From assembly GCF_001942345.1 (NCBI RefSeq), contig NZ_MKKI01000022.1:1-64000 (forward strand): DNA of 64,000 nt. The letters run 5' to 3'. The stretch's first letter is position 1. Every line of letters starts with the position of its first letter. Under the pieces are notes generated by a model. That model did no database searches. It was not told the origin of the DNA and saw only the letters and a program-made list of their open reading frames with translations. Made by a program: the position numbers and the translations under genes. This document shows positions 23,623-33,485 of the stretch, one piece after another. This stretch comes from Corynebacterium sp. CNJ-954. Its GTDB lineage: Bacteria > Actinomycetota > Actinomycetes > Mycobacteriales > Mycobacteriaceae.

Positions 23623-23773
23623 GCCGAGAAATATACACACGACGCCGTCCGGGATGCAAAACGTCAGTGGACATGCTGGTGGGGCGGTAGAAATGAGCGA
23701 CGGGTGTCCTGTGGTCGGGGCGAGGAGAAACGCGTGTTGGCTCCGGGAGGGCTCCGTTGCTATCATGAGGTCC

Positions 23774-23859
23774 GGACGCCGCGCGGCGTGCATCTTGTGA
23801 ACTCCCCCAGGGCAGGAATGCAGCAAGGGTCAACGAGCTCTGGCGGGTGCGCGGTGTCC
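23774..23859 (+). ncRNA. ffs: Signal recognition particle RNA (small bacterial type)
   Basis: The sequence has the conserved SRP apical core (CAGGGCAGGAATGCAGCAAGGGT, given here as CAGG..AGGAA..GCAGCAA..) that binds Ffh, flanked by pairing arms. The ends GGACGCCGCGC and GCGCGGTGTCC pair over 11 positions with one G-U. A T-rich tail (TTTAACTTTTT, 23860-23870) follows and probably terminates it. Ends are set by the helix and may be off by several bases. Confidence 0.85.
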
Positions 23860-23890
23860 TTTAACTTTTTCTCCGGACGAAGGACGTCTC

Positions 23891-23944
23891 ATGCTGATCG
23901 ACGATCGTCATCCCGCACACCGTCGTGCGTTGACGTCGTCGTAG
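23891..23944 (+). CDS. Candidate leader peptide of ABC-F gene
   Basis: A 17-codon frame, MLIDDRHPAHRRALTSS, with a good ribosome site (GAAGGA, 6 bases upstream) in the leader between SRP RNA and the ABC-F gene. It ends 16 bases before a 10-bp hairpin. Its last codons contain CGTTGAC (23928-23934), complementary to the left arm of that hairpin. This is the layout of translation-coupled attenuators that control ribosome-protection ABC-F genes. The peptide is not a recognised family. Confidence 0.4.
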   Translation: MLIDDRHPAHRRALTSS

Positions 23945-23960
23945 CCGTGTCGTCGGCTCC

Positions 23961-23984
23961 GTTGTCAACGCCTCCGTTGACAAC
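23961..23984 (+). promoter_or_regulatory. Hairpin in ABC-F leader (possible attenuator)
   Basis: GTTGTCAACG - CCTC - CGTTGACAAC, a perfect 10-bp stem with a 4-base loop, 14 bases before the ABC-F ATG and just before its ribosome site (GGAG). The left arm can pair instead with CGTTGAC at 23928, giving two exclusive folds. No T-run follows. As DNA it could also be a repressor operator. Confidence 0.5.
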
Positions 23985-23998
23985 CACTGGAGTCCACG

Positions 23999-25630
23999 AT
24001 GTCAGTAACCCCCCAACCGTCCGTCGTCCTCACGGACGTTTCCTTCTCCTGGCCTGACGGCACCGCCACCCTGGACCACATCTCTGCCGCATTCGGTACC
24101 GGGCGTACCGGCCTGGTCGGCGCCAACGGAACCGGGAAATCGACCCTGCTCAAGCTCATCACCGGTGAGTTGACACCGGTCGCCGGGACGGTCACCACCA
24201 GGGGTGCCGTCGACTGCCTGCCCCAGAATCTGGCCCTCACGACCGAAGTGACGGTGTCGGATCTTCTCGGTGTCACCGACACACTGCACGCGCTGCGCGC
24301 CATTGAGGCAGGCTCGGTCGAGACGCGGCACTTCGATGTCCTCGACGAGGCGTGGGACTGTGAAGCACAGGCCCGAACCGCGCTGGACGACGTCGGCCTC
24401 GCGACTGTCGGTCTCGACCGCACGGTCGGGACGTTGTCCGGCGGAGAAACCGTCCTGACGGCCGTGGCAGGACTCCGCTTGCGACGCAACCGGAGCGACG
24501 GGGTCGTCCTGCTCGACGAGCCCACCAACAACCTTGACCGGCGTGCGCGGCACGATCTCTATGACGCGCTGACGACATGGCCGGGTGCACTGATCGTGGT
24601 CAGTCACGACGTCACATTACTGGACCTCATGGATGACACCGCAGAACTGCGTCTCGGCAACCTGGAGATGTTCGGCGGCGGTTACAGCGACTACCGGCAG
24701 CAGGTGGAGCAGGAGCAGGCGGCCGCTGAACAAGCGCTGCGCACCGCAGAACAGACACTCAGGACGGAGAAACGCCAACAGGCGGACGCCCAGACGAAGC
24801 TGGCACGCCGTCAACGCTACGCCCGCACGGACTTCGTCAACAAGCGCAAGCCCAAGATGATCATGAACCAGCGTAAGACCGAGGCTCAAGTCTCCGCAGG
24901 CAAGCTGCGTGGTGAGCTGGATGAGAAGGTCGCAGCGGCGCAGCGTGAGAAACAGCGGCAGGAGGAGCGGCTCCGCCACGAGTCGGTCATCCGGATCACG
25001 CTGCCTGACCCCGTTGTGCCGGCCGGGCGGCGCCTGGTCGAGTTCCGTGATGACCGTGCTACCTCAGTGGTGTTGCAGGGGCCGGAGCGACTCGCACTGA
25101 CCGGGCAGAACGGTGTCGGGAAGACGCGGTTGCTGGGGGCACTCGTCCGTCAGGCCCGGGATGATGACGGTTCGACCGCGGCACAGCACGGTGTCCGTGC
25201 GTCCGCATTCACCGACCGGATCGGGTACCTGCCGCAGCGGCTCGACCACCTGGACGACGAAGCCACGGTCATCGACACGGTGCGGGCGGCGGCGCCGAAT
25301 GCACCGGTTGAGCAGGTGCGTGCGAGTCTCGCCCGGTTCCTCTTCGGCGAGGATACGGTTCACCGGCGGGTGGGGGACCTGTCCGGTGGTGAACGTTTCC
25401 GGGTCGCCCTGGCCCACATCCTGCTCGCGGAACCGGCGCACCAGCTGCTGGTACTTGACGAGCCGACCAACAACCTCGACCTCGACAGCGTCGACGCACT
25501 CGTCTCCGCGCTGGAGGACTATCACGGTGGCCTGATCGTGGTCAGTCACGACGATGCATTCCTCGGCCGGATGGGCATCGACACCTGGGTGGAACTTCAG
25601 CATGGCGTCCTGCACCGGGTCGGCCTATAG
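23999..25630 (+). CDS. ABC-F family ATPase (ribosome-associated)
   Basis: A 543-residue protein with two ABC domains and no membrane segment. First domain: Walker A GANGTGKST near 38, signature LSGGE near 148, Walker B VVLLDEPTNNLD near 172. A charged coiled-coil linker spans about residues 235-330. Second domain: Walker A GQNGVGKTR near 370, signature DLSGGERFRVAL near 462, Walker B LLVLDEPTNNLDLDS near 485. ABC-F proteins act on the ribosome as translation factors or as antibiotic-resistance protection proteins. The regulated-looking leader favours an inducible resistance type, but the subfamily cannot be fixed by eye. Confidence 0.92.
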   Translation: MSVTPQPSVVLTDVSFSWPDGTATLDHISAAFGTGRTGLVGANGTGKSTLLKLITGELTPVAGTVTTRGAVDCLPQNLALTTEVTVSDLLGVTDTLHALRAIEAGSVETRHFDVLDEAWDCEAQARTALDDVGLATVGLDRTVGTLSGGETVLTAVAGLRLRRNRSDGVVLLDEPTNNLDRRARHDLYDALTTWPGALIVVSHDVTLLDLMDDTAELRLGNLEMFGGGYSDYRQQVEQEQAAAEQALRTAEQTLRTEKRQQADAQTKLARRQRYARTDFVNKRKPKMIMNQRKTEAQVSAGKLRGELDEKVAAAQREKQRQEERLRHESVIRITLPDPVVPAGRRLVEFRDDRATSVVLQGPERLALTGQNGVGKTRLLGALVRQARDDDGSTAAQHGVRASAFTDRIGYLPQRLDHLDDEATVIDTVRAAAPNAPVEQVRASLARFLFGEDTVHRRVGDLSGGERFRVALAHILLAEPAHQLLVLDEPTNNLDLDSVDALVSALEDYHGGLIVVSHDDAFLGRMGIDTWVELQHGVLHRVGL

Positions 25631-25633
25631 TTA

Positions 25634-25652
25634 GTTCACTTCATTAGTGAAC
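25634..25652. promoter_or_regulatory. Operator-like dyad before RibD_C-family gene
   Basis: GTTCACT - TCATT - AGTGAAC, perfect 7-bp arms, AT-rich, 21 bases before the ATG of the reductase-like gene and directly after the ABC-F stop. It has the look of an ArsR/MarR/HxlR-type binding site overlapping the promoter. Confidence 0.5.
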
Positions 25653-25673
25653 CGAAATATGTCGGGAGTGACG

Positions 25674-26327
25674 ATGGTCCGTACGAGAGTCCACAACCTG
25701 TTCGTGTCCTCCGACGGCTACGCGGCCGGAGACCACGTGACCTTCGAGAACCCGATCGGTGACGCCGGGGCACTGTTCAGCCGGTTCGACGGCCGTGTCA
25801 TCGACGGCATCCACGGTATCGAGGGGACCGGCGACCCGGTGACCGTGGACCACGCCATGTTCAGCATGTGGGGTCAGGGGATCGGGGCCGAGATCATGGG
25901 CCGGCGCAAATTCGGCCCTCAGACTGGCCCGTGGCCCGATGACGGATGGGAAGGATGGTGGGGAGAGGCGCCACCGTTCCGGACCCCGGTCTACGTCCTG
26001 ACCCATCATCCGCGGGAGCCGATCGAGTTCGACAACGGCACGACTTTCCACTTCGTGGATGCGTCGCCGGACGAGGCGCTCCGCCTTGCGCGTTCTGCGG
26101 CACAGGGCGTGGATGTGCGCCTCGGCGGTGGTCCGTCCACGGTGCGGGAGTTCCTGCAGGCGGACCTCGTCGACTTCCTCCACGTCATCATCATCCCCGT
26201 CGTCCTCGGAGCAGGCGTGCGACTCTGGGATGACCTGGCCGGCGTGGAGGAACGCTTCACGGTCGAGTCCGTCAGCACGTCCTCCGGGCTCACGCACCAG
26301 TTGTGGAACCGGGTCGCACGCGGCTGA
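25674..26327 (+). CDS. Dihydrofolate reductase-like (RibD C-terminal domain) protein
   Basis: A 217-residue protein of the RibD_C/DHFR-like fold: VHNLFVSSDGYAAGD at the start, MGRRKFGP near 70, PVYVLTHHPREP near 105, and VRLGGGPSTVREFLQADLVDFLHVIIIPVVLGAGVRLW (given here as separate strands: GGGPSTVREF, then PVVLGAG) near 150-190. Family members are NADPH-dependent reductases of unknown substrate, often single genes under local repressor control. ATG 25674 has GGGAG 5 bases upstream; earlier in-frame starts at 25647 and 25659 lie within or beside the operator. Confidence 0.85.
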   Translation: MVRTRVHNLFVSSDGYAAGDHVTFENPIGDAGALFSRFDGRVIDGIHGIEGTGDPVTVDHAMFSMWGQGIGAEIMGRRKFGPQTGPWPDDGWEGWWGEAPPFRTPVYVLTHHPREPIEFDNGTTFHFVDASPDEALRLARSAAQGVDVRLGGGPSTVREFLQADLVDFLHVIIIPVVLGAGVRLWDDLAGVEERFTVESVSTSSGLTHQLWNRVARG

Positions 26328-26341
26328 CGCGGTTGACACGG

Positions 26342-27136
26342 TTACCGGCGCCGGCGTGCTGTGGCTGCAAGTAGCAGGGTCCCGACGGCCGCGGCCCCGA
26401 CAAGCCACAGCAGTGCAGGGACTACGGAGCCGCCTGCCCCGGCGGTTCCCGCGCAGACGTTCATCGCCTCCACGACGGTACTCAGCGGATTGATCCGGAC
26501 AATACCCTGCATGTAGGACGGAAACCCGTCGACCGGCATGAATCCGCTGTTGCAGAACATCATGATCATCATCACCGGCAATGCGGCCACCGTCGCCTCC
26601 GGGGTGCGCGCCACCATCCCGACCCAGGTCAGGAAGCAGCTGAAAGCCAGGGAGACCAGGGCAGCGAGCGCGAGGATGCCGACGACGGCCAGCGGGTTCT
26701 CCAGGCGGTAGCCCATGAAGAGCCCGGTGACCAGGATCAGCGCCGCGCCCACAGTCCCCCGCACCACCTCTGCAAGGACCCTGCCGACCAGAGGTGACAC
26801 GGCGACACCGGGAAGCGTCCGAAACCGGGTGAACAGGCCCTCCTGACGCTCGGTGACCAGCCCCGCAGCGCTGGTGGCTCCGGCGAACATCGGACCGGTG
26901 CAGATCATCAGCGGCACCAGCCCCTGGACCGCCGGCCGGCCCGTCGCCATTTCTACGGCGTTGCCGAACATGAACGCGATGATCAGGAGCATGGCCACCG
27001 GCATGCCCAGGCTCTGCACCAGAATCGCGGGGGTGCGCGACCATCCGCGGAGGGTCCGTCCGGCGTGGAGGGCAATCGCGCCGATGACGGACGCCGAAGC
27101 GCGTTGTGACGGGGGTGTGTGCGTTGTCGAACTCAT
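26342..27136 (-). CDS. ABC-2 type transporter permease (DrrB-like)
   Basis: A 264-residue permease with six hydrophobic helices and the DrrB/ABC2 pattern (ILVQSLGMPVAMLLIIAFMF near 35, GLVTERQEGLFTRFRTLPG near 95). It overlaps the preceding permease gene by 4 bases, and ATG 27136 has GGAGGAG upstream. It forms a heterodimeric exporter with the next gene and the ATPase. Likely cargo is a drug or a lipid; not determinable. Confidence 0.87.
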   Translation of the reverse strand: MSSTTHTPPSQRASASVIGAIALHAGRTLRGWSRTPAILVQSLGMPVAMLLIIAFMFGNAVEMATGRPAVQGLVPLMICTGPMFAGATSAAGLVTERQEGLFTRFRTLPGVAVSPLVGRVLAEVVRGTVGAALILVTGLFMGYRLENPLAVVGILALAALVSLAFSCFLTWVGMVARTPEATVAALPVMMIMMFCNSGFMPVDGFPSYMQGIVRINPLSTVVEAMNVCAGTAGAGGSVVPALLWLVGAAAVGTLLLAATARRRR

Positions 27137-27930
27137 CGGCTCCTCCTGAAACTCCGGGCGCACAGGACGGCGCCGATGACTGCGAGCCCGACGATCCAGG
27201 CGGTGGCGGCCCCGGCTGTCCCCGCGGTGACACCGGTGGTGCTGGCCTGGCGGAGGAGTTCTCCGATGACGGACACGGGGAGTGCGCTGATGACGTCCGC
27301 CGCGCCGTCGGGCAGGGTCTCAGCGGGAACGAAAGACGTGGACAGCATGATCAGTGGCATGGACACCGCCTGCAACAGCGCGGCCGCGGACTCGGGGGTG
27401 GCGGCGAGGAGTGCGAGGCCGTCGTAGACCAGCGATGCCGCGACGGCGAACCCGACGGTCGCGACCAGGTAAACCATCGTGTCGCCGGCGTTGCCCTCCC
27501 ATCCGAACCCGAGGAATACAGCACCGATCGCTGTCACGACCGTCACGGACAACACCGCGCGGGTCAGATCGGCGATGAGCCGGCCGAGCACGGGGGCGGC
27601 CGTGGGGACCGGGGAGGCACGTAGCCGGTCATTGATGCCGTTGGTCTTGTCGACCCCGATGGCCATCGCCGATCCGCCGGCGGTGAACAGGATCGCCTGA
27701 AGCGTCGCTGCAGGAACGAGGTACTGCCCGTAGTCGATACCGTTTGCTTCCATGACCCGGGAGAACACGATGTAGAGGGCGACGAGGAACAGCCCCGGAA
27801 TCACGGTTGCGCTGATGACGGATCCGGAGTTGCGCCGGATCCGGAGTATGTTGCGTCCGGCCAGCGCCAGTGTGGACGGCAGCAGCTCCGGTACGTGGGC
27901 AACCGCGGTGGAGGGGACGGAGGTGGTCAT
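27133..27930 (-). CDS. ABC-2 type transporter permease (DrrB-like)
   Basis: A 265-residue permease with six hydrophobic helices and the conserved loop DKTNGINDRLRASPV near residue 97, characteristic of daunorubicin-type exporters. It starts at the end of the ATPase gene (TGATG overlap); a GTG one codon upstream (27933) is an alternative. It is partner of the permease at 26342-27136. Confidence 0.87.
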   Translation of the reverse strand: MTTSVPSTAVAHVPELLPSTLALAGRNILRIRRNSGSVISATVIPGLFLVALYIVFSRVMEANGIDYGQYLVPAATLQAILFTAGGSAMAIGVDKTNGINDRLRASPVPTAAPVLGRLIADLTRAVLSVTVVTAIGAVFLGFGWEGNAGDTMVYLVATVGFAVAASLVYDGLALLAATPESAAALLQAVSMPLIMLSTSFVPAETLPDGAADVISALPVSVIGELLRQASTTGVTAGTAGAATAWIVGLAVIGAVLCARSFRRSR

Positions 27931-28901
27931 CACGCCGACTCCTGCGGTGCGGCCCTACCGGTGAGGGAGAAGAACACGTCGTCCAGGGTGTGACTGCCCA
28001 TTTCCATGCCTGCCAGTTCAATGCCCGAGCCCCCGAGTGCCTGCATTACGGCGGCCGCCGTCCGGGCTCCGTCCGTCAACGGCACTGCGACCGTGTCCTC
28101 CCCGGCGGTCGGTGCCCAGGTGGTGAGGACGGTGGATAGGCGGGGAAGGTCAGCGGGGTCCTCCGGAGTGAGGACGAGGTCGTTCGGGCCGAGCCGTCCC
28201 TTGAGTTCGTCTGCCGTCCCTTCGGCGATCACGGTGCCGTGATCGATGACGACGATGCGGTCAGCGAGCTCGTCTGCTTCCTCGAGGTACTGGGTCGTGA
28301 GCACGACCGTGACTCCGCGGGCCTTGAGTTCCCTGACGACGTCCCACAGTTCGGAGCGGGCGTGGGGGTCCAGGCCGGTCGTCGGTTCGTCGAGGAAGAG
28401 GACCTCCGGGACGGTCATCATCGACACCGCGATGTCCAGGCGTCGCCGCATGCCGCCGGAGTACGTACGGACCAGCGAGCCGCCGACGTCGGAGAGACTC
28501 AGGCTGGCGAGAAGTTCATCGGCACGCGCCCCGGCTGCCGTCTTGCGCAGGCCGCGGAGCCGTCCGAAGAGGACGAGGTTCTCACGTCCGGTGAGCTCGC
28601 CGTCCACCGCGGCGAACTGCCCTGTGAGGGAAATGGCGGACCGCACGGCTGCCGCGTCCTTGACGACGTCGAACCCGGCGACGGTCGCGGTACCGCTGTC
28701 GGGCGTCTCCAGCGTCGACAGGACATTGACCGCCGTGGTCTTGCCTGCACCGTTGGGACCGAGGACACCGAGCACCTCACCACGTCGGACGCTGAGGCTG
28801 AGTGTGTCGAGCGCGTGCACCGTCCGGTTCCGGGTGCGGTAGGTCTTCCGGACCGCGTCCATGCGGACGACGGGTGGCGCGCCGGGGTCGGGCTCTGTCA
28901 T
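27930..28901 (-). CDS. Daunorubicin-resistance-type ABC exporter ATPase (DrrA-like)
   Basis: A 323-residue ABC ATPase: Walker A GPNGAGKTT near 48, Q-loop SLTGQFAAVDGELTGREN, signature YSGGMRRRLDIA near 148, Walker B VLFLDEPTTGLD near 168 and a C-terminal DrrA-type domain (MGSHTLDDVFFSLTGR). It is first of a three-gene operon with two permeases. A 9-bp imperfect dyad sits right upstream (28921-28945), so repression by a TetR-like protein encoded elsewhere is plausible. Confidence 0.9.
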   Translation of the reverse strand: MTEPDPGAPPVVRMDAVRKTYRTRNRTVHALDTLSLSVRRGEVLGVLGPNGAGKTTAVNVLSTLETPDSGTATVAGFDVVKDAAAVRSAISLTGQFAAVDGELTGRENLVLFGRLRGLRKTAAGARADELLASLSLSDVGGSLVRTYSGGMRRRLDIAVSMMTVPEVLFLDEPTTGLDPHARSELWDVVRELKARGVTVVLTTQYLEEADELADRIVVIDHGTVIAEGTADELKGRLGPNDLVLTPEDPADLPRLSTVLTTWAPTAGEDTVAVPLTDGARTAAAVMQALGGSGIELAGMEMGSHTLDDVFFSLTGRAAPQESA

Positions 28902-28920: not shown

Positions 28921-28945
28921 TAACAGTGAATAGGTGTCAATGTTA
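28921..28945. promoter_or_regulatory. Operator-like dyad upstream of DrrAB-type exporter
   Basis: TAACAGTGA - ATAGGTG - TCAATGTTA: 9-bp arms with one mismatch, 19 bases upstream of the ATPase ATG. Length and spacing suit a TetR-family repressor, but no such regulator gene is adjacent. Confidence 0.4.
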
Positions 28946-29092
28946 GGGTTGCCTGTTCATTCTCAGTTGTCAAGAGGTGATGTCGGGGAGAGAGGTCCCG
29001 TTCCTGCGACGGCGCACCCTGTCGGTTCCCGCCCGGTCCCACTACACTCGAGCGGAACACACCCGTTGAAGTCGAGGAGGTCCTGCGGGACT

Positions 29093-30379
29093 ATGAAGCT
29101 CACCCACGCGAACACTGACGTACTGAACACCCTGACGTCCCTGAGGGGCGAGGCCGACAAGGCCTACCAGGAGCTCAAGGACCGGAATCTGGCACTTGAC
29201 CTCACGCGTGGGAAGCCTTCCGCTGAACAGCTCGATCTCGGCATGGACCTGCTCAGCCTCCCCGGAGTCAACTACACGGGCTCGGACGGCGTCGACACCC
29301 GCAACTACGGTGGTGGCGACGGCATCATGGACATCCGGTCGCTGTGGGCGGAGCTCCTCGGTGTCGATCCGTCGCGGCTGATCGCCGGGGACTCCTCCAG
29401 CCTCAACATCATGTTCGACCTGGTCTCCTGGTCCCACACCTTCGGGAACAACGATTCGGAGCGACCCTGGTCGGCCGAGGAGACGGTCAAGTGGATCTGC
29501 CCGGTCCCCGGGTACGACCGGCACCACACCATCACCGAGACCTTCGGTTACGAGATGCTGACGGTCCCGATGACGGACCAGGGCCCGGACCTGGAGGCCG
29601 TCCGGGAGCTGGTCAAGGATCCTGCGGTCAAGGGCATGTGGACTGTGCCGGTGTTCTCGAACCCGACCGGGTGGTCGGTCTCCCGCGAGGTCGCCGAGGG
29701 GCTCGCCGCGATGGAGACCGCGGCGCCGGACTTCCGCATCGTGTGGGACAACGCCTATGCCGTGCACACCCTCACCGACGAGTTCCCGGAGATCATCGAC
29801 GTGGTGGCCCTGGCTGCGGACAAGGGGCACCCGAACCGCTTCTGGGCGATGTCGTCGACGTCGAAGATCACCTTCGCAGGAGCCGGTGTGGCCTTCTTCA
29901 ACTCGTCGAAGGAGAACCTCGACTGGTACCGCGGAATCGCCTCGGCACGCGGAATCGGGCCGAACAAGGTCAACCAGCTCGCGCACGCCCGTTACTTCGG
30001 CAGCGCCGAGGGGGTCCGCTCTGTCATGCGGAAGCACTCGGGCATCCTGGCTCCGAAGTTCAGTGCGGTGACCGCGATCCTGGAGCGCCGTCTGGGTGGG
30101 CTGGGGATCGCCGAATGGACCACCCCCGCCGGCGGTTACTTCATCTCCGTCGACGTGGTGGACGGGACAGCGTCCCGCGTGGCCGAGCTCGCGAAGAACG
30201 CGGGGATCGCCCTGACCGGGGCCGGGGCGACCTTCCCGTACAAGAAAGACCCGCACAACCGTAACCTGCGGTTGGCCCCGTCCATGCCGCCCCTCGAAGA
30301 GGTCGAGGTGGCGATGGACGGGGTGGCGACCTGCATCCTGCTCGCGGCCATCGAGGCCGCAGAGGCCGCCGGAGAGTAG
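29093..30379 (+). CDS. aspT: Aspartate aminotransferase, subgroup 1c
   Basis: A 428-residue fold-type I aminotransferase. The pattern (LDLTRGKPSAEQLDL near 33, NYGGGDGIMDIRSLWAELLG near 70, PVPGYDRHH near 135, FSNPTGWSV near 180, DNAYAVH near 215, SSTSKITFAGAGVAF with the PLP lysine near 255) matches the actinobacterial class 1c enzyme that makes aspartate from oxaloacetate. Place, right before dnaX-ybaB-recR, matches aspT of C. glutamicum as I recall it. ATG 29093 begins the conserved part. Confidence 0.85.
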   Translation: MKLTHANTDVLNTLTSLRGEADKAYQELKDRNLALDLTRGKPSAEQLDLGMDLLSLPGVNYTGSDGVDTRNYGGGDGIMDIRSLWAELLGVDPSRLIAGDSSSLNIMFDLVSWSHTFGNNDSERPWSAEETVKWICPVPGYDRHHTITETFGYEMLTVPMTDQGPDLEAVRELVKDPAVKGMWTVPVFSNPTGWSVSREVAEGLAAMETAAPDFRIVWDNAYAVHTLTDEFPEIIDVVALAADKGHPNRFWAMSSTSKITFAGAGVAFFNSSKENLDWYRGIASARGIGPNKVNQLAHARYFGSAEGVRSVMRKHSGILAPKFSAVTAILERRLGGLGIAEWTTPAGGYFISVDVVDGTASRVAELAKNAGIALTGAGATFPYKKDPHNRNLRLAPSMPPLEEVEVAMDGVATCILLAAIEAAEAAGE

Positions 30380-30382
30380 CCG

Positions 30383-31024
30383 TTGAATCTCGAGGAGACG
30401 ACATACTGGTTGGCAGATCTGCTGCCCGGCGAGTTCACGACATCCCGGCGCCGGGTGAGCCAGAGTTTTCCGGAGTTCACCGTCGCCGAACTCCGGCTCG
30501 GTGACAACGGTGGGGAGGCAGGCGGGGAGGACGATGGTGCGGAGACCGTTGCAGCGACGCTGGACGCCGCACGGATCGAGCCTCAGCTGGTCACCGAGGA
30601 CGGCTCTGACCTGAGGGTCGAGTTCATCACCGTCGCCAGTGGTCACGGTCGTGCCGCCGCAGACCTCGTCATGGCGGCGGCAACGATGGTCGCCAAGGAC
30701 CCCATCCACTTCTCGCCGCAACCCGGACTGCTGCTGCCGAAGCTCGGCTGGCATGTCGATGACACGATCACGGCTCTGCACGGGCTGCTGGTGCCCCCGT
30801 TCCTGTGGGAGGACGGGGTGCCGAACGTGCACGAGGTGAATTTCGGGGGACGGCACGGTGGTGGCACGTACCACGAGTACACCCACCCGGGCCGGATGAC
30901 GGTCTATGCACAACTGGTCATGCTCACCGAGGAGGAGTATCGCGTGGCTGTGGACGGCGGCCCCGCGGCGGCACAGCAGTTGCTGGCCACCTCGCAGGCG
31001 AATCTCAACGACGTCTGGCGCTAG
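30383..31024 (+). CDS. Suppressor-of-fused (SUFU)-like domain protein
   Basis: A 213-residue soluble protein starting with TTG 3 bases after the aminotransferase stop; the ribosome site GGAG lies in the end of that gene. The segments SDLRVEFITVASGH, MVAKDPIHFSPQPGLLLPKLGW (split here: MVAKDPIHF, PGLLLPKLGW) and AQLVMLTEEEYRVAVDGG resemble the bacterial SUFU domain, whose role is unknown. Similar genes hold the same slot before dnaX in other corynebacteria to my recollection. Confidence 0.6.
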   Translation: MNLEETTYWLADLLPGEFTTSRRRVSQSFPEFTVAELRLGDNGGEAGGEDDGAETVAATLDAARIEPQLVTEDGSDLRVEFITVASGHGRAAADLVMAAATMVAKDPIHFSPQPGLLLPKLGWHVDDTITALHGLLVPPFLWEDGVPNVHEVNFGGRHGGGTYHEYTHPGRMTVYAQLVMLTEEEYRVAVDGGPAAAQQLLATSQANLNDVWR

Positions 31025-31031
31025 CGCCAAC

Positions 31032-31058
31032 GGCGGGGCGGTAGCTGTCTGCCCCGCC
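31032..31058 (+). terminator. Hairpin between SUFU-like gene and dnaX
   Basis: GGCGGGGC - 11 bases - GCCCCGCC, perfect 8-bp stem followed by TTGT. It fits the 50-bp gap and may be a partial terminator insulating dnaX. Confidence 0.45.
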
Positions 31059-31073
31059 TTGTAGGCTGGGTCC

Positions 31074-33485
31074 GTGGCTCTTTACAGGAAGTACAGGCCG
31101 GCGACGTTCGCCGAGGTCGTGGGGCAGGAACATGTGACCGAGCCGTTGTCGACGGCACTGGACAGCGGGCGGATCAACCACGCCTACCTGTTCTCGGGCC
31201 CGCGCGGGTGCGGCAAGACGTCCTCGGCGAGGATCCTCGCCCGGTCACTGAACTGTGAGCAGGGGCCGACATCCTCCCCGTGTGGCGAGTGCGCGTCCTG
31301 TCGAGCACTGGCACCCGGGGGGCCGGGGACGTTGGACGTCACGGAGCTGGATGCTGCCACGCATAACGGTGTGGAGGACATGCGCGAGCTCCGTGACCGT
31401 GCTTTCTATGCCCCGGCGGACTCCCGGTACCGCGTCTTCATCATCGACGAGGCGCACATGATCTCCTCGGCGGGGTTCAACGCGTTGCTGAAGATCGTCG
31501 AGGAGCCGCCCGAGCATCTCATCTTCATCTTCGCCACCACGGAGCCGGAGAAGCTGCTGCAGACCATCCGGTCGAGGACCCACAACTACCCGTTCCGGCT
31601 GCTCACCCCGCCGGCGATGCGGGGGCTGCTCGGCAGGGTGTGTGAGGACGAGGGGGCCGTCGTCGAGGACTCCGTGTATCCACTGGTCATCCGTGCCGGG
31701 GGTGGTTCACCGCGTGATTCGCTGAGCATCATGGATCAGCTGCTGGCCGGGGCAGGGGACGAGGGCGTGACATACAGTCGGGCCGTGGCCCTGCTGGGGT
31801 TCACCGACACGTCGTTGATCGACCGGGCCGTGGACGCCCTGGCGGACCAGGATCAGGCGGGGTTGTTCGGTTGTGTCAGTGACGTCATCGACGCCGGCCA
31901 CGACCCCCGTCGGTTCGCGATGGACCTCCTGGACCGTTTCCGTGACCTCCTGGTGGTTCAGGCGGTGCCGGACGCTTTCGACACCGGCCTGGTGGATGCT
32001 CCGGCCGACCAGCGTGAGGTCCTTGCGGCGCAGGCGCAGGCGGTGGGGCAGGCGACGCTGACCAGGTGTGCATCACTGGTGAACGAGGGGTTGGCACAGA
32101 TGCGGGGCGCGACCGCACCCCGGTTACTTCTGGAGATCCTGTGTGCCCGGATGGCACTGCCCGCGGCAGGTATGACCGTCGAAGCGCTGGCACAGCGTGT
32201 CGAGGCCCTCGAAGCCGGAGGGGGCACAGGTGGCACAGGCGGAGGTGGCGGAACCGGTGCGGGGACCGGGCGACCCTATGTGCGTAAGTCGAAGCGCGAG
32301 GCGGAGGCCGCGCCGCAGGCTGTTGCAGAGGCAGTTCCGGAGACCGACCCAGATCAGGCACCGGCACCGGCGGCACCGACTGCCCAGGACGAGCCTGCAG
32401 CATCCCCGCAGGACACTCGCCGGGCAGAGGCGGAACGAGCCCGCGAGATCATGAGGCGGCGCCGGCGTCCGTCCGCCGAAGAGCCGACCGACACCGGTGG
32501 CACAACGGATCCCGGTGACGTCGCTGACACCGATGGGTCCGGCACCTCTGCGCAGGCAGAGACCCGTGACGAGGCTGCCACAGAGCGTCCGTCGTCCGAC
32601 ACGGAAAATACGGCCCCGTCGGAGACCCCGGAGGAGCCGGAAACGACAGCCCACCCGGTTCAGCGGTGGGACGAGATCCTGGAGACGGTGAAGCAGTCGA
32701 ATCTCGCCGCGTGGATCGCTGCGCGTGACGCGACCGCGCAGGAAGGACCCGACGACGAGGGCGGCCGAGCGGCGATCACCCTGGTGCACCACACGGGTGC
32801 GCTGGCGAACTACATCAACTCACCGGAGCATGCCGCCGTGTACTCCGACGCCGCAGAAAAGGTCACCGGTGCGCCGGCCCGGATCACGGCGAGCGTCGGT
32901 GGCAGGACCGCGCAGGAGTCGCCGGGAAAAGCTGAGGCTGTGGCGGACCCGCAGCCGGAACCTGAACCGCAGGAGGATGCTGCCCCGGCAGAGGAGCCTA
33001 TTGCCGCGGGCGAGGCCCCGTCCGACCCGATGTCGGTCGCGTTGCAACGGGCACGGCACGTGGAACCCCCGCAGGACCCTCCGGTCGCGGAACGGAAACC
33101 GGAGGAAACGCCGGTACAGCGGGTGCAACCACCGGCGGTGAAGAATGACGGTCAGGATGAACAGCTTTCCGGCTGGCGGGCACGCAAGGCCAGGATCGAT
33201 GCGAGACGCGGTTCCGGGCAGGCGGTCCATTCACCGCAGTCTGGCGGGGACGCGCGTGGCTTCAACGGAGTTCCTCTTCCCGAAGAACCTGACGAACCCT
33301 GGGATGACGGCCCCGGCGGCCCTCCGCCGGACCCGGAAGGACCGCAGGGCGTTGACAGGGCGGAGGCAGAGGAAGCCATGGCGCAACTCAACGACCCGTC
33401 CTCGGCGAACATCGACCACCGCAGTGCCATCGAGATCGCCGGCGAGCTCCTGGAGAAGCACCTCGGGGCGGAACGGACCCGGTAG
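31074..33485 (+). CDS. dnaX: DNA polymerase III gamma/tau subunit
   Basis: An 803-residue clamp-loader ATPase. AAA+ core: LYRKYRPATFAEVVGQEHV at the start, Walker A GPRGCGKTSS near 43, four-Cys zinc module (CEQGPTSSPCGECASC) near 60-75, Walker B VFIIDEAHMIS near 117, sensor 1 IFATTEPEK near 150, Arg finger region IRSRTHNYPFRL. A long Pro/Glu/Ala-rich linker (about 390-530) joins the C-terminal tau part. GTG 31074 gives the conserved N-terminus. It loads the beta clamp and couples polymerases. Confidence 0.95.
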   Translation: MALYRKYRPATFAEVVGQEHVTEPLSTALDSGRINHAYLFSGPRGCGKTSSARILARSLNCEQGPTSSPCGECASCRALAPGGPGTLDVTELDAATHNGVEDMRELRDRAFYAPADSRYRVFIIDEAHMISSAGFNALLKIVEEPPEHLIFIFATTEPEKLLQTIRSRTHNYPFRLLTPPAMRGLLGRVCEDEGAVVEDSVYPLVIRAGGGSPRDSLSIMDQLLAGAGDEGVTYSRAVALLGFTDTSLIDRAVDALADQDQAGLFGCVSDVIDAGHDPRRFAMDLLDRFRDLLVVQAVPDAFDTGLVDAPADQREVLAAQAQAVGQATLTRCASLVNEGLAQMRGATAPRLLLEILCARMALPAAGMTVEALAQRVEALEAGGGTGGTGGGGGTGAGTGRPYVRKSKREAEAAPQAVAEAVPETDPDQAPAPAAPTAQDEPAASPQDTRRAEAERAREIMRRRRRPSAEEPTDTGGTTDPGDVADTDGSGTSAQAETRDEAATERPSSDTENTAPSETPEEPETTAHPVQRWDEILETVKQSNLAAWIAARDATAQEGPDDEGGRAAITLVHHTGALANYINSPEHAAVYSDAAEKVTGAPARITASVGGRTAQESPGKAEAVADPQPEPEPQEDAAPAEEPIAAGEAPSDPMSVALQRARHVEPPQDPPVAERKPEETPVQRVQPPAVKNDGQDEQLSGWRARKARIDARRGSGQAVHSPQSGGDARGFNGVPLPEEPDEPWDDGPGGPPPDPEGPQGVDRAEAEEAMAQLNDPSSANIDHRSAIEIAGELLEKHLGAERTR

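Follow-up and report, generated by a model that had tools for sequence, protein, structure and literature searches.

A conserved leader with alternative hairpins as a probable translational attenuator of an actinobacterial ABC-F gene

We have found a conserved RNA leader directly upstream of an ABC-F gene in the window (the whole 64-kb stretch of DNA analysed here). We consider it quite probable that this leader is a translational attenuator, in which a ribosome stalled by a drug on a short leader ORF would gate expression of the ABC-F gene. An attenuation layout at this place had been proposed by a reading of the sequence alone; at the level of sequence analysis the proposal is supported by conservation of the leader in relatives, by covariation of its two hairpins (P1 and P2) and by the folding logic of truncated RNAs. 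The elements of the locus are the following (basis in brackets).

23737-23766, + strand: promoter-like site 5′ of the SRP RNA gene (one found, 0.4 expected)
23770..23866, + strand: bacterial small SRP RNA gene (Rfam RF00169, 62.7 bits)
23879..23884, + strand: GAAGGA, putative ribosome-binding site of the leader, 6 nt 5′ of its ATG (sequence)
23891..23944, + strand: leader ORF, MLIDDRHPAHRRALTSS, 17 codons, ATG at 23891-23893 and TAG at 23942-23944
23899..23941, + strand: predicted leader hairpin P1, segment 0 (23899-23918) with 23925-23941, hiding segment 1 (fold, covariation)
23927..23934, + strand: segment 1, GCGUUGAC, with segment 0 or segment 2 as partner (pairing, conservation)
23955..23960, + strand: anti-Shine-Dalgarno GGCUCC, pairing with GGAGUC at 23989-23994 (fold, alignment)
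23961..23984, + strand: hairpin P2, arms 23961-23970 and 23975-23984, 10/10 pairs, 4-nt loop (pairing, fold)
23964..23971, + strand: segment 2 for the alternative pairing, GUCAACGC, in the left arm of P2 (pairing)
23989..23992, + strand: Shine-Dalgarno GGAG of the ABC-F gene, 6 nt 5′ of its ATG, inside the extended P2 (fold)
23999..25630, + strand: gene for an ABC-F ribosomal protection-like protein, 543 aa (NCBIfam NF000355, two ABC_tran stretches)

The sequence-only reading had named three elements, all of which are present: a 17-codon frame with a good ribosome site (ATG 23891, GAAGGA at 23879-23884), a perfect 10-bp hairpin between this frame and the ABC-F gene (10/10 pairs, 23961-23984) and complementarity between the end of the leader and the left arm of that hairpin (GCGUUGAC with GUCAACGC, 8/8 pairs). 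The window thus has the short leader ORF with a ribosome-binding site 5′ of the gene that an attenuator calls for, and the leader start lies 108 nt from the start of the ABC-F gene. Two further elements were absent from that reading and come from the predicted fold, which for 23868-24040 has a z of −5.56 and was equalled by 0 of 200 shuffles. P2 is prolonged by the GGCUCC:GGAGUC helix, so that the hairpin is predicted to sequester the Shine-Dalgarno of the ABC-F gene, and the leader folds on itself as P1. Another attenuator feature, an exclusive alternative pairing set by the position of the leader ribosome, is indicated by sequence, conservation and the folding of truncated RNA, and is unfavourable in equilibrium folding of the whole leader.

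By itself the sequence of the window is suggestive and not decisive, exceeding chance only moderately. Perfect 10-bp hairpins gave eight overlapping calls in the window, corresponding to five distinct sites, where 20 first-order simulations averaged 1.2 calls; triples made of a 7-mer, its reverse complement and the same 7-mer again were found three times on the + strand, where 50 simulations averaged 0.4. We take the leader element to be real because it is conserved in relatives.

The switch is described here in segments, a scheme also used for the ermC attenuator. Without drug, a ribosome would reach the leader stop and mask segment 1, leaving segment 2 to take segment 3; the extended P2 would then bury the ABC-F Shine-Dalgarno (off state). 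In ribosome-free RNA, P1 would also hide segment 1 in the window and in about half of the relatives. A ribosome stalled by a drug on one of the first 1-8 codons (MLIDDRHP) would cover segment 0 and leave segment 1 free, which could capture segment 2 as soon as it was transcribed; P2 would be blocked and ABC-F translated (on state). The likeliest stallers would be drugs of the lincosamide, streptogramin A or pleuromutilin type, which act at the peptidyl-transferase centre and stop ribosomes at the start. Since the leader needs early stalls, lincosamides, tiamulin and pristinamycin IIA would be the first candidates. Excerpts of a published study (PMC12421871) describe ribosomes stalled by these same drugs at the start codons of the Are5sc and TiaA uORFs.

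A protein search of 201 genomes of the same genus (E up to 1e-100) gave 36 matches; 13 of them, the window included, share 56-100% identity and the other 23 are at 40-43%. By eye, eight of the 12 relatives in the closer group have the same layout (L009-L013, L017-L019). Two more fit the model, L016 and L020 (in the latter the element is further upstream because the gene is interrupted), and the loci L014 and L015 carry variants of the layout. Two covariance models were built, R1 from nine sequences and R2 from 15. Of 242 same-genus genomes scanned with R1, 15 carry a match, the window's own genome among them, and 12 of the 15 matches lie directly 5′ of an ABC-F gene, which in one case (G116) is truncated; seven of these 12 had been members of the model. 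The remaining three (G029, G159 and G070), all among the four weakest matches in the genus, were set aside as not directly 5′ of ABC-F; the match in G070 sits within a distant ABC-F-like stretch. The same scan did not recover G080 (32.8 bits), G061 and G018. Under R2 the leaders of G061 and G018 score 18.5 and 18.2 bits, and another site in the same loci scores higher, 26.8 bits.

R2 was run with strict filters against two wider sets, one of 397 genomes from the order and one of 396 from the phylum. Both sets gave matches in G315 and in the window's own genome, and the order set gave one more, in G510; in both of the new genomes (2/2) the element is directly 5′ of an ABC-F orthologue, with 64% identity in G315 and 55% in G510. 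Outside the genus the element has named carriers in a Propionibacterium MAG (L038) and Ancrocorticia populi (L055), both used in the models. In Glycomyces (L085) there is a 24.9-bit R2 match 5′ of the ABC-F gene, and in Microbacterium (L040) and an actinomycete MAG (L092) the motif is present at other spacings. The motif CGYTGA...TCARYG, which was derived from the window type itself, occurs upstream of 13 of 14 window-type genes, four of 38 'other' genes and none of 28 genes with MLV-, DISG- or VLxxRVxA-type leaders. A motif-free search for triples 5′ of 80 ABC-F genes (7 nt, at most one G-U) proved too strict, with hits at three of 14 window-type genes against 1.1 expected. In two loci the gene is damaged and the leader is still in place: the ABC-F gene is split over two frames in G161 (L127) and truncated in G116 (L125), where there is also a mismatch between segment 1 and segment 2.

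The leader is conserved as RNA rather than as peptide. All 19 leaders compared (and all 15 rows of the alignment A4, described below) start with ATG or GTG, and in 14 of the 19 the N-terminus reads (M/V)-(L/I)-(I/V/T)-x-D, with CTG, CTC or TTG as codon 2 in the leucine leaders. The C-termini differ (...RALTSS*, ...ALTS*, ...SVR*, ...TTR*), while the DNA sequence GCGYTGAC is constant. In 18 of the 19 leaders the stop codon starts 3 to 14 nt past the start of CGYTGA, the exception being G080, where the stop is 6 nt 5′ of it; outside this set, L015 fits the placement and L092 departs from it, with its stop at +25 and segment 1 at +69. With the stop on or near segment 1, a terminating ribosome would nearly always cover this segment. 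In the window, if the leading edge is assumed to lie 15 nt beyond the first base of the P-site codon, the arithmetic puts the leading edge of a terminating ribosome at leader position 64; the anti-Shine-Dalgarno starts at position 65. In three genomes, G147, G161 and G040 (L126, L127 and L131), a −10-like box was seen by eye 7-8 nt 5′ of the leader ATG and a ribosome site was not obvious; the spacing of the box suggests a leaderless uORF transcript.

Covariation was assessed on two alignments: A3 (nine sequences, MAFFT, unfitted) and A4 (15 sequences), whose fitting to P1 and P2 works in favour of both helices. On A4, both-side changes were found in six of 16 pairs of P1 (shuffle mean 2.1) and in seven of 16 pairs of P2 with its outer helix (shuffle mean 3.4), and in each case 0 of 500 shuffles were as high; with the partners slid by 1-3 columns at most three (P1) and two (P2) such pairs remained. 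P2 and its outer anti-Shine-Dalgarno helix each have 96.6% of cells paired. The signal is weaker on A3: P1 has three pairs (53/500 shuffles as high; 8/500 for the covariation score) and P2 has two (55/500; 3/500 for the covariation score). The 1:2 helix, formed by segments 1 and 2, is paired in 81/81 cells on A3 and in 90.1% of 131 cells on A4, compared with at best 62.3% and 55.9% in the slid controls. Its letters barely vary, and on A4 its covariation was not above that of the shuffles (one pair; 392/500). Near-invariance is expected here because the segment must pair with two partners. The anticipation that relatives would show a conserved leader with compensatory changes in the arms was therefore borne out for P1 and the Shine-Dalgarno hairpin and not for the 1:2 helix, which is kept without covariation.

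The same changes bear on another reading of the hairpin, in which a repressor would bind GTTGTCAACG-CCTC-CGTTGACAAC as its DNA operator and the leader ORF would be incidental. It is a perfect palindrome 5′ of a resistance-type gene, and the distinct perfect hairpins of the window number five in all. Still, changes in one arm are compensated in the other among relatives, and the anti-Shine-Dalgarno helix shows matched variation too; the third copy, in the leader, stays complementary, and the leader start and stop codons are kept. The compensation between the arms and the additional copy in the leader led us to set the operator aside, and we regard it as extremely improbable.

The logic of the proposed attenuator was followed by folding RNA cut just after segment 2, which mimics transcription. 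In the window, 1:2 pairing is 0.00 without a ribosome, 0.84-1.00 with a ribosome on codons 1-8, 0.44 on codon 9 and 0.00 from codon 10 on. With the ribosome on codons 4-7, pairing is at least 0.8 in 13 of 15 sequences, the exceptions being G040 and the truncated-gene leader G116, and with the ribosome on the last codon it is 0.00 in all 15. Six further leaders behave alike on codons 4-7 (at least 0.8 in 6/6), and five of the six drop to 0.00 at the last codon (0.56 in L092). The 1:2 pairing also forms without any ribosome in seven of the 15 sequences (0.70-1.00) and in five of the six further leaders (0.66-1.00). Thus P1 is no general lock, and in these relatives the off state would need continuing translation.

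At equilibrium and with codon 5 occupied by a ribosome, the 1:2 state lies 0-10.8 kcal/mol above the best fold (4.1 in the window; equal to it in five of 15). The predicted accessibility of the Shine-Dalgarno reaches at most 0.27 in the window, is below 0.1 in seven of 17 sequences, is flat in G226 and in G080 is highest without a ribosome. Equilibrium accessibility of the Shine-Dalgarno thus did not reproduce a clean switch, whereas the truncated RNA did. In the released fold of the window, the Shine-Dalgarno may re-pair with CCUCC of the loop region of the hairpin. Given this weak equilibrium picture, a kinetic trap has to be assumed, the decision being taken while the RNA is made. In 10 of 15 sequences equilibrium favours P2 despite a ribosome on codon 5, which would also suit hairpins whose sole effect is to keep ABC-F translation low and constant or to stabilise the mRNA, with no sensing of drugs. 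Such a constant level, however, leaves unexplained why the complementary segment, the leader frame and the stop on that segment are kept, and we think it very unlikely.

The drug-gated switch probably acts on translation rather than on transcription, because P2 is not followed by a U-run and no conserved terminator was seen. If the attenuation were transcriptional, P2 or a nearby hairpin would terminate transcription early, by an intrinsic or a Rho-dependent route, unless a ribosome stalled on the leader. According to excerpts of the reports (PMC12421871, PMC9226507), published ABC-F attenuators act wholly or in part on transcription, and the ones proposed for are5sc, tiaA and vmlR are among them; a terminator-like site lies at 24018-24038 within the ABC-F gene. 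Against this, CACUGGAGUCCACGAUG, the sequence after P2, has no U-run and does not qualify as part of an intrinsic terminator; no terminator was seen after P2, and the site at 24018-24038 is not kept in relatives. Within the first 60 nt of the gene, four of 16 sequences, the window included, have a call for a terminator-like site, and these sites differ in sequence; the 2.5-kb stretch has two terminator-like calls against 0.9 expected. The outer helix of P2, moreover, is formed exactly with the Shine-Dalgarno. Early termination is accordingly a rather unlikely basis for the control.

ABC-F attenuators, including one that sequesters the Shine-Dalgarno (cplR), are already known; in the open-licence literature we found no description of the leader of the window. 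In excerpted descriptions, TiaA and Are5sc (Streptomyces coelicolor, ARE5 ABC-F) have in common with it alternative folds and the position of a uORF ahead of an actinobacterial ABC-F gene, and differ in having 5′UTRs of 194 and 232 bp, the uORFs MVGDDDISG and MLV and proposed terminators. The excerpts of PMC12421871 give Met-Leu-Val as the beginning of the are5sc uORF. The window, in contrast, has 108 nt, 17 codons, predicted sequestration of the Shine-Dalgarno and no terminator seen. In cplR of Clostridioides difficile, also an ABC-F gene, a 3′ hairpin sequesters the Shine-Dalgarno and a 5′ hairpin contains the uORF, and translational attenuation is reported, in the excerpted text, to suffice for repression without drug (PMC10201436). 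The uORF there is MRI, and the hairpin doubles as an intrinsic terminator with a poly-U tract, unlike the window, which has no U-run. In vmlR of Bacillus subtilis the uORF (MIN) lies in the first stem-loop and the last stem-loop partly sequesters the ABC-F Shine-Dalgarno, as far as excerpts of PMC9226507 describe it; an intrinsic terminator is present in that leader too. The ermC leader is alike in that arrest on the leader peptide refolds the mRNA and exposes the Shine-Dalgarno (PMC10219788, in excerpt), and differs in that its gene encodes a methyltransferase and is induced by erythromycin, while the gene in the window is an ABC-F gene.

For the protein of the window, NF000355 is the best NCBIfam match (308.2 bits, below the curated cut-off of 380), and the best match by sequence to a solved structure is 7nhl, a lincosamide-streptogramin A resistance ABC-F. 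A quick tree was made of 80 proteins, with leader types assigned by pattern and with SH-aLRT support only; in it, 13 of the 14 window-type genes and L014/L015 make a group of 15 (support 90), with L134 outside. The tree includes two distant outgroup rows on long branches, and L002 fell inside. The sister group of 53 contains the same-genus genes of 40-43% identity and clades with MLV-type and (M/V)xGDDDISG-type leaders; the labels TiaA-like and Are5sc-like come from the uORFs alone, the tree having been made without TiaA, Are5sc or LmrC sequences.

Other leaders were seen alongside. L063, L068, L070, L071, L074, L075, L077, L086, L087, L102 and L113 have a uORF whose end reads GDDDISG or nearly so; uORFs of this type precede ABC-F genes in Pseudonocardiaceae, Micromonosporaceae and Mycolicibacterium and resemble the reported TiaA uORF. 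Same-genus genes of the 40-43% group (L022, L024, L028, L034 and L037) have unlike leaders (VLIRRVFA*, VLxFRVSA* and so on), situated ~30-70 nt 5′ of the ABC-F start with a small hairpin over the stop, e.g. GTGTTTTTGCGTAAAACAC (by eye). In L024, ATCCGT...ACGGAT flanks the ABC-F ribosome site (by eye). The VLIRRVFA*-like leaders are probably another class of attenuator.

In the window, 24 nt separate the 3′ end of the SRP RNA from the leader ATG, hence any promoter would have to lie in or before the SRP gene. The arrangement makes it likely that the ABC-F gene is expressed by read-through from the SRP gene. The SRP RNA is directly 5′ of the element in the window and in L009, L010, L011 and L017, and in none of 13 other loci scanned. 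In eight of 11 other same-genus genomes an aminotransferase gene follows within 1.5 kb of the SRP RNA; the copy in the window is at 28934-30379. From this adjacency elsewhere, the ABC-F block was probably inserted between the two. In the window the SRP RNA and the ABC-F block behind it occupy 23770-28901, followed by the aminotransferase with the ORF after it (28934-33485), an ORF that we take to be dnaX-like. The gene order ffs-aminotransferase-dnaX suggests that the organism is a Corynebacterium. Just past the ABC-F stop there is an inverted repeat, GTTCACT-TCATT-AGTGAAC (25634-25652), which may be an operator or a terminator; the ORF that follows it is presumably RibD-like. As a tentative extension, possible rather than probable, the following may hold jointly: the same RNA segment would be reused across frames, coding in some lineages and serving as stop codon in others, and in the clade of the window a drug-gated gene behind the SRP RNA would be expressed solely by housekeeping read-through, the SRP promoter maintaining a supply of nascent leaders, with protein made or not according to the translational switch alone.

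These results add to the inducible-looking ABC-F genes a compact leader family without a visible terminator, together with a covariance model that finds it; the family ranges over one actinobacterial genus, two other genera of its family, Propionibacterium and Ancrocorticia. Related ABC-F genes have unlike leaders, so that the gene seems to persist while its leader can be exchanged. Should the switch operate as proposed here, tests done without induction would miss this kind of resistance.
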